Source of the DNA: Bacteroidia bacterium
GTDB lineage: Bacteria; Bacteroidota; Bacteroidia; Bacteroidales; Bacteroidaceae
Direction of reading: 5' to 3'
NCBI GenBank assembly: GCA_009929715.1
Contig: RZZX01000003.1
Location: 1-64,000 of the forward strand
DNA: 64,000 bases
Shown here piece by piece: positions 49,456-52,130 of the stretch. A program made the translations under genes and the position numbers. Positions within the stretch are counted from its first letter, which is position 1; each line of letters opens with the position of its first letter. Under the pieces are notes generated by a model, which did not search any database, had not been told where the DNA came from, and saw nothing but the letters and a program-made list of their open reading frames with translations.

Positions 49456-49508
49456 GAAATATACCATAAACGGGTTATTTCGTCACCTCTCAAAAGTGCC
49501 TACTTTTG
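49456..49508 (+). promoter_or_regulatory. cysK promoter with putative operator (TACCA-N9-TATTTC-N19-TACTTTTG)
   Basis: TACCA 49462-49466, TATTTC 49476-49481, -7 box 49501-49508. Same arrangement upstream of metY. Confidence 0.6.
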
Positions 49509-49594: not shown

Positions 49595-50542
49595 ATGACT
49601 CAAATAGCAAAACGGCTCACAGAGCTTATCGGACATACCCCGTTATTGGAATTGCAACAGTTTGGACAATTCCATTCATTAGAAGCCACTCTCATCGGCA
49701 AACTAGAATCGTTTAATCCTTTGGGAAGTGTGAAGGATCGCATCGCACTAGCCATGATCGAAGAAGCTGAAGCCACGGGGGTGCTTTCATCCCACAGTAT
49801 CATTATTGAACCAACGAGCGGGAATACTGGCATCGGACTAGCCTTTGTAGCGGCTACACGTGGTTATCGACTCGTCTTAACGATGCCCGAAACGATGAGC
49901 TTAGAGCGCCGCAATTTATTGAAAGCACTGGGGGCTACACTGGTCTTGACTCCAGGGGCCGAAGGGATGAAAGGGGCTATCGCAAAGGCAGAGATACTTC
50001 GCCAAGAGACACCGGGAGCTATCACGCTACAGCAGTTTAGCAACGCAGCCAACCCAACCATACATACCCGAACCACGGCGGAAGAGATCTGGCAGGACAC
50101 AGAGGGGAAAGTCGACTTATTTGTGGCTGGGGTAGGAACAGGTGGCACGGTGAGTGGCGTAGGAAAACGATTGAAAGAGCTAAAGCCAACGATCGAAATA
50201 GTTGCCGTAGAGCCCAGCGACTCTCCAGTCCTTTCGGGAGGTGCACCTGGACCACATAAGATACAAGGAATCGGTGCCGGCTTTATCCCAGACAACTACC
50301 ATGCTCGTTATGTAGATCGCGTCATGCAAGTGACTAATGAGGAAGCGATACTCACTAGTCGCCAACTGGCAAAGACTGAAGGATTACTTGTTGGCATCTC
50401 ATCGGGGGCAGCAACCTATGCCGCCATGCAACTAGCTAAACTCCCCGAATACAAAGGAAAAACAATCGTAACGATGCTACCAGATACAGGAGAACGTTAC
50501 CTCTCTACACTCCTTTACGACTTCGATGGGTATCCGCTCTAA
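49595..50542 (+). CDS. cysK: Cysteine synthase A
   Basis: [42 protein letters not shown]. Confidence 0.95.
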
Positions 50543-50547
50543 CACGA

Positions 50548-50597
50548 AAATACCACATAAATGGTATTTCAAGAATCGTTCCATAAAGCTACTTTTG
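50548..50597 (+). promoter_or_regulatory. metY promoter with dyad AAATACCA-N6-TGGTATTT and -7 box TACTTTTG
   Basis: TACCA 50551-50555, TATTTC 50565-50570, -7 box 50590-50597. Confidence 0.6.
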
Positions 50598-50618
50598 CAG
50601 CATTAATATGACAACAAC

Positions 50619-50714
50619 ATGAGAACAGACAACCATTTCTTTTCACTAATTTGGTGTGCATTTCATTCGAATGCATACCAAATGTTGTCTATGTCTCCCC
50701 GAATGTGCTGCTAG
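50619..50714 (+). CDS. Putative leader peptide MRTDNHFFSLIWCAFHSNAYQMLSMSPRMCC
   Basis: ATG to TAG, 31 sense codons, in the metY 5' leader; ends Met-Cys-Cys. Below the length cutoff of the supplied ORF track. Confidence 0.5.
   Translation: MRTDNHFFSLIWCAFHSNAYQMLSMSPRMCC
50649..50683 (+). promoter_or_regulatory. Stem-loop within the leader ORF
   Basis: ATTTGGTGTGCATT ... AATGCATACCAAAT, 14-bp arms with one G-U position. Confidence 0.6.
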
Positions 50715-50722
50715 CAGCACAT
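50703..50722 (+). promoter_or_regulatory. 20-bp perfect palindrome overlapping the Met-Cys-Cys-stop codons
   Basis: ATGTGCTGCTAGCAGCACAT. Confidence 0.7.
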
Positions 50723-50819
50723 ATAAACCTATTATACGATCTCTACCGATCTGTTTATCGCATTGCATATCCGATAAACCTCTACATTCCCTTCCATTAT
50801 TCATCATTAAGAAAATTAA

Positions 50820-52130
<1,311 letters not shown>

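Follow-up and report, generated by a model that had tools for sequence, protein, structure and literature searches.

The short open reading frame (uORF) that separates cysK from metY in the window (the whole stretch of 64,000 nucleotides analysed here) raises the question of whether its peptide, which closes with two Cys residues, has a role in the expression of the sulfur gene that follows. Our comparison of sequences indicates that it is probably a leader peptide that reports the supply of cysteine, and perhaps that of methionine as well, to metY. The features of the locus are collected in the table below. The presumed target, metY, scored 670 bits against the family of O-acetylhomoserine/O-acetylserine sulfhydrylases, for which the cut-off is 495, in agreement with the claim of a preliminary description of this DNA that the downstream gene makes sulfur amino acids.

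Table. Features of the cysK-metY region, with positions numbered from the first nucleotide of the window
Feature	Position	Strand	Basis
cysK, cysteine synthase A, upstream neighbour	49595..50542	+	TIGR01139 above cut-off
Palindrome AAATACCA-N6-TGGTATTT 5' of the promoter, probable binding site of a transcription factor	50548..50569		inverted repeat
Bacteroidetes-type -7 box TACTTTTG, predicted promoter	50590..50597	+	sequence; TAnnTTTG-like boxes likewise placed in relatives
uORF, putative leader peptide MRTDNHFFSLIWCAFHSNAYQMLSMSPRMCC	50619..50714	+	sequence, shuffles, relatives
RNA stem AGACAAC/GUUGUCU around a 15-bp hairpin (50649-50683), within the uORF	50627..50690	+	predicted fold
CGA-ATG (Arg-Met) adjoining the Cys codons 5'	50700..50705	+	invariant in 7/7 Bacteroidales leaders
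Tandem Cys codons TGC TGC, presumed sensor	50706..50711	+	Cys right after RM in 7/7 Bacteroidales leaders
Stop-codon hairpin ATGTGCTG-CTAG-CAGCACAT	50703..50722	+	fold, palindrome; kept in the window and five relatives
C-rich, G-poor tail with hairpin (50753-50779), candidate Rho-loading region	50723..50834	+	composition, fold
metY, O-acetylhomoserine/O-acetylserine sulfhydrylase, presumed target	50835..52130	+	TIGR01326, PF01053

The uORF consists of 31 codons, with Cys at positions 13, 30 and 31 and Met at positions 1, 22, 25 and 29, and it ends in Met-Cys-Cys-stop. Its ATG is placed 21 nt past the -7-like box, and metY begins 120 nt further 3' of the uORF. The preliminary description had given the coordinates of the ORF, its three Cys and four Met codons, the two consecutive Cys codons before the stop, the -7 box and the start of metY, all of which were found exactly in place. 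For an estimate of chance, the 230-nt leader was subjected to 5000 dinucleotide shuffles. A short ORF ending in Cys-Cys-stop was encountered in 15 of these, two of the 15 having three or more Cys, while an ORF ending in Met-Cys-Cys was found in none of the 5000 shuffled leaders; the uORF with its Met-Cys-Cys end is far from chance expectation. It is to be noted that a four-codon ORF, MTTT (50608-50622), has a stop codon that overlaps the uORF start as ATGA, which would make reinitiation possible.

The metY orthologues were taken from genome collections, and their upstream regions were inspected for uORFs; the loci are cited here by their L numbers, and peptide ends are given up to the stop codon. 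An R-M-C-ending uORF was found directly before metY in six further Bacteroidales, with the ends ICMLSASFRMCC in L020, GMLSTPFRMC in L026, ARMCF in L037, LLNRMCC in L039, SVRMCCCKH in L104, and IMSFRMCCFYSTY in L146, and the motif CGAATGTGC was unchanged in all seven leaders, including that of the window. The preliminary description had stated that loss of the uORF and its terminal Cys codons from orthologous leaders would speak against it, and both were indeed kept in these six. The conserved end, the Cys codons and the other sulfur genes described below thus lend good comparative support to its proposal of a candidate cysteine-responsive leader peptide. Several close relatives, with metY 85-88% identical, are nonetheless without the uORF while keeping the promoter-proximal palindrome, and the element is therefore patchy. 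Within the window's own genome, none of the other CGAATGTGYTG sites had a leader of this kind, two of them proving on close reading to be coding sequence, and a DNA similarity search for the leader within the assigned genus returned short matches only.

The RNA of this leader is predicted to be strongly structured (z = -5.7 for the fold of 50600-50850). A GACAAC...GTTGTC pairing similar to that inside the window's uORF could also be read by eye in L020 and L026. The codons of Met-Cys-Cys-stop themselves sit within a perfect 20-nt palindrome, and the corresponding hairpin around the Cys codons, GTGCTG-loop-CAGCAC, recurs in five of the relatives, L104 being one pair short. In several relatives the 3' arm of the hairpin lies beyond the stop codon and complementarity is kept nonetheless, whereas the reading frame of L146 continues through this arm. 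In alignment A1, 92% of the cells of the stop hairpin were paired, compared to at most 53% when the partner was slid; no two-sided change was seen in this alignment, because the 5' arm never varies. A blind scan of 395 Bacteroidales genomes with the hairpin pattern produced six matches, among which the only leaders were those of the window and L146, both at metY.

Known regulatory elements were also sought. No RNA family of Rfam matched the window's leader up to E = 5, and the SAM-I riboswitch in particular had no match in this leader or elsewhere in its genome. The single fold predicted for the window contained no antiterminator or alternative hairpin, and a simple scan found no intrinsic terminator between the uORF and metY, in keeping with the earlier statement that no U-tract terminator is present. 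Likewise, the region before metY had rightly been called C-rich and G-poor; it holds 28 C and 7 G in 111 nt, a count that pertains to the window's own leader. Two further candidates were rejected. Starting at the Cys codons, the +1 frame meets no stop before a TGA that overlaps the metY ATG, but this potential frameshift coupling is not conserved in relatives, and a general pairing of the Cys codons with downstream RNA was weak in the window's group and absent in other groups.

In the mechanism that we infer as regards translation, stalling and the direction of the response, the uORF would be translated by ribosomes during its transcription. When charged Cys-tRNA is scarce, ribosomes would halt on the tandem Cys codons before the stop, hold the hairpin open and shield the adjacent RNA, and metY would be made. 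When cysteine is ample, they would complete the uORF and depart, upon which the hairpin of the Cys and stop codons may form and the C-rich tail may be exposed, leading to an early end of transcription or to poor metY expression. Ribosomes placed on Cys30/31 or on the stop codon of the window's uORF should cover nearly the same RNA, and thus the difference between the two conditions would lie in how long the hairpin stays open, and not in a choice of hairpin. Since the window lacks a SAM riboswitch, an intrinsic terminator and an antiterminator, it is not an attenuator of the trp type, and since nearly all Bacteroidia leaders are also free of a terminator (intrinsic terminators were seen in 6 of 43 leaders by the simple scan), the output must take another route. 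One plausible route is the action of Rho on the tail, rich in C and poor in G, to which we give somewhat less than an even chance; an effect on translation or RNA stability may serve instead. The patchiness of the element, the lack of two-sided covariation in the stop hairpin and its restriction to part of the phylum, and, in the window, the near-identical coverage by the two ribosomes and the lack of a terminator or alternative hairpin speak against this reading.

Beyond Bacteroidales, short ORFs ending in runs of Cys or Met often precede metY. The uORF ends in CCSRMCMCCCCC in Pontibacter and in RMCCCCACCC in Hymenobacter, GCICMCCCCC is the end in others, and RMCMCCCCC is likewise among the Cys-run ends of Bacteroidota, while Met runs are found in Carboxylicivirga (HMMMCMMMTR) and Thermophagus (GMMMGRMSMA). 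Ignavibacteria/Kapabacteria have a uORF with both Met and Cys that contains VMMQMCMMMCCCM, and another Met-rich version at metY ends in GMMMGRMSMFMA. At least four Cys or at least four Met in the last 14 codons of a short ORF were counted in 32 of 132 metY upstream regions, against 0.4 in shuffles, although the set includes near relatives and the 32 positives are not independent events. As a side observation, the Met-rich uORFs before metY in L072, L075, L086, L078, L079 and L096 were without SAM-I where tested, and are possible methionine-sensing leaders.

A blind scan for Met-Cys-Cys-Cys-Cys in 248 genomes of the class produced 59 sites, compared to 5 for the reversed pattern. All 59 were inspected, and many proved to be parts of coding sequences or very short ORFs; the separate uORFs with a gene behind them were assigned by judgement rather than by a blind count. 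Such uORFs preceded metY (L157, L204-L206), metX (L159, L160), PAPS reductase (L202, L203), nitrite/sulfite reductase (L167, L193) and homoserine dehydrogenase (L189). Poly-Cys uORFs were also noticed before genes of the OsmC (L168) and PhyH (L170, L171) families, while most of the genes served other than metY belong to sulfur assimilation.

Two further features of the leaders may bear on the mechanism. First, in Ignavibacteria/Kapabacteria there is a strong terminator, GCCGTTCTCAC...GTGGGAACGGC followed by a T run, and a competing pairing with the end of the uORF, which suggests textbook attenuator anatomy with the gene ON when the ribosome is stalled; behind the Met/Cys-rich uORF of L083, L108 and L122, an arm of a strong intrinsic terminator can alternatively pair with the uORF end. 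Second, of the 27 Arg-Met pairs within the final 16 residues of the peptides, 25 use CGA for Arg, while CGA accounts for 29 of the 584 Arg codons (~5%) of the metY genes behind the same leaders; possible causes of this preference before Met are that CGA is decoded slowly or that the nucleotides form a motif.

By Rfam search, a SAM-I riboswitch was present in most of the non-Bacteroidales leaders tested, and the first AUG past the aptamer, 3-13 nt 3' of it, was the start of a Cys-rich uORF at 26 of 32 loci, which is not to be read as a frequency, since the loci had for the most part been chosen because they were rich in Cys or Met, and some come from closely related species or share a genome. 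Examples of the tandem are L071 (3596-3844), L097 (3495-3770), L114 (1115-1381) and L160 (1217 onward). For comparison, the 30 SAM-I sites with the highest scores across the class were examined; they stood mostly before genes that were metH-like or cystathionine-synthase-like by N-terminal sequence, and none of the 30 was followed by a Cys run of this kind, the sole metY among them having a weak Cys-Cys uORF that starts slightly later. Cys codons among the last 24 numbered 6.6 with the riboswitch versus 2.7 without it, while Met codons numbered 2.0 versus 3.7, differences that their p values overstate, given the relatedness of the species. It was also observed that tandems of SAM-I and a poly-Cys uORF stand before metY, metX or OsmC, as possible leaders with two inputs, SAM and Cys.

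Taken together, the leaders suggest that cysteine sensing of this kind is widespread, often with a SAM riboswitch in tandem and mostly terminator-free. We consider it about an even bet that sulfur amino acid genes of Bacteroidota are controlled by a phylum-wide, two-input class of leaders in which SAM-I governs initiation of the poly-Cys leader peptide and ribosomes read the supply of Cys-tRNA, whereas in leaders without the riboswitch, such as that of the window, the peptide alone would sense Cys and/or Met with a terminator-free output, the conserved CGA-AUG being part of the stalling device.

Among the other readings, the one that survives best is a joint sensor of methionine and cysteine, in which the Met codons (QM, SM, RM) would weigh as much as the Cys codons and the uORF would report on sulfur amino acids as a whole. 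Three internal Met fall within the final ten codons of the window uORF, and Met-rich versions (MMMCMMMTR and those with GMMMGRMSMFMA and VMMQMCMMMCCCM) occupy the same spot in leaders that, like the window, have no SAM riboswitch. However, the R-M-C end alone is constant in the closest group, the other Met codons being variable, and MLS may be retained for the sake of the RNA stem; we regard joint sensing as rather unlikely.

A second reading accepts the cysteine signal and reverses its sign: stalling at low cysteine would lower metY expression and spare scarce sulfide for CysK over homocysteine. The products of cysK and metY, neighbours in the window, do compete for sulfide, and the direction is not readable from a sequence without a terminator. 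Against this, PAPS reductase and nitrite/sulfite reductase have uORFs of the same kind, and these genes should be turned on by a shortage of cysteine; moreover, the terminator-bearing relatives are, by their anatomy, ON when stalled; the opposite sign is thus improbable. It is less probable still that the decisive element is the RNA and not the peptide, i.e., that a protein or ligand recognises the hairpin and CGAATGTGC while the frame is incidental. Conservation of both at the nucleotide level and the bias of the Arg codon would fit such an element, but the stop hairpin is not general in the phylum, and other groups that lack it keep the Cys- or Met-rich frame; moreover, the uORF start codon is fixed 3-13 nt past the SAM-I aptamers, and shuffles fail to yield the frame.

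We assign a very small, and marginally smaller, likelihood to the nascent Cys-rich peptide responding, while inside the ribosome tunnel, to metal, sulfide or redox state instead of the charging of Cys-tRNA. Metals could be bound by runs of Cys, a plain codon sensor would not require an end as constant as Arg-Met-Cys, and a copper-sensing, Cys-containing nascent protein has been described (PMC9973294), but Cys and Met runs substitute for each other between groups, and the genes serve to make sulfur amino acids and not to handle metals. Lastly, a functionless chance ORF is hardly credible, since, although a length of at least 31 codons is by itself not rare (1483 of 5000 shuffles) and some relatives are without the uORF, the MCC end was absent from the shuffles and conservation before metY in six relatives contradicts chance.

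The preferred reading, a cysteine-reporting leader peptide, has parallels in other phyla. Leaders with Cys runs have been described in Actinobacteria (PMC1262725; Canestrari et al. 2020, doi 10.1111/mmi.14498, as cited in PMC13236596). These mycobacterial and actinobacterial poly-Cys uORFs share with the window a Cys run near the stop of a short ORF before sulfur genes and the lack of an obvious intrinsic terminator, and Rho has been proposed for them; they differ in phylum and in the genes served (the cys operon and cbs). They are described as leaderless; the window ATG lies about 21 nt past the predicted -7 box. Unlike them, the window has a hairpin that holds the Cys codons, with Arg-Met before these. 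The predicted uORFC-8-2 motif that precedes cysS in Rhodobacterales (PMC8632094), compared here by its description, similarly places two tandem Cys codons in a stem, within a short uORF that leads a gene related to Cys, but the gene is cysS and an intrinsic terminator is present, in contrast to metY and the terminator-free leader of the window. The metE and ppe2 leaders of M. tuberculosis combine a B12 riboswitch and a uORF (PMC11260477), comparable to the relatives with SAM-I and poly-Cys in having a riboswitch and a translated uORF in one leader; the ligand and genes are different, there is no run of codons for one amino acid, and the window has no riboswitch.

Attenuators of the trp/his type resemble these leaders in having uORF codons for the relevant amino acid, and the Ignavibacteria/Kapabacteria leaders fit this type with their terminator and competing pairing, whereas the window has neither terminator nor antiterminator. 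In tnaC of E. coli, Rho is masked by a ribosome that occupies the end of the leader, in response to free tryptophan sensed through the TnaC nascent peptide. That mode of sensing differs from the one proposed here; the likeness is in the ribosome at the leader peptide end beside a C-rich, G-poor tail, and for the window it is one of base composition alone. With Cys leader-peptide attenuators the window has in common the consecutive Cys codons near the stop before a sulfur gene and the conservation of Cys in orthologous leaders. For Bacteroidota, general hints only were found (PMC9723704, PMC7366714), and neither a Cys leader for metY of this phylum nor a SAM riboswitch combined with a Cys leader was found in a full-text literature search that covered few subscription journals and main articles without supplements. 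Shine-Dalgarno sequences are hardly used in Bacteroidota and attenuation has been little studied there; Pontibacter and Hymenobacter are culturable relatives with such leaders.

The assembly to which the contig belongs has a completeness of 92% and a contamination of 8%. The metY genes of the assigned genus are at most 78% identical to that of the window, compared to 84-88% in other families of the order, and where the upstream region could be read in the right orientation, they follow cysK closely without a leader; the contig may therefore belong to another lineage (misbinned), or metY may have been transferred.

Upstream of the promoter, palindromes of the AATACCA-N6-TGGTATT type precede metY in many relatives, whether or not these have the uORF. 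A genome-wide count with one mismatch allowed gave 14 sites for the palindrome versus 11 for the control, which does not justify the claim of a regulon. A degenerate copy also lies before cysK (~49459-49482), as a possible site of a shared sulfur regulator.
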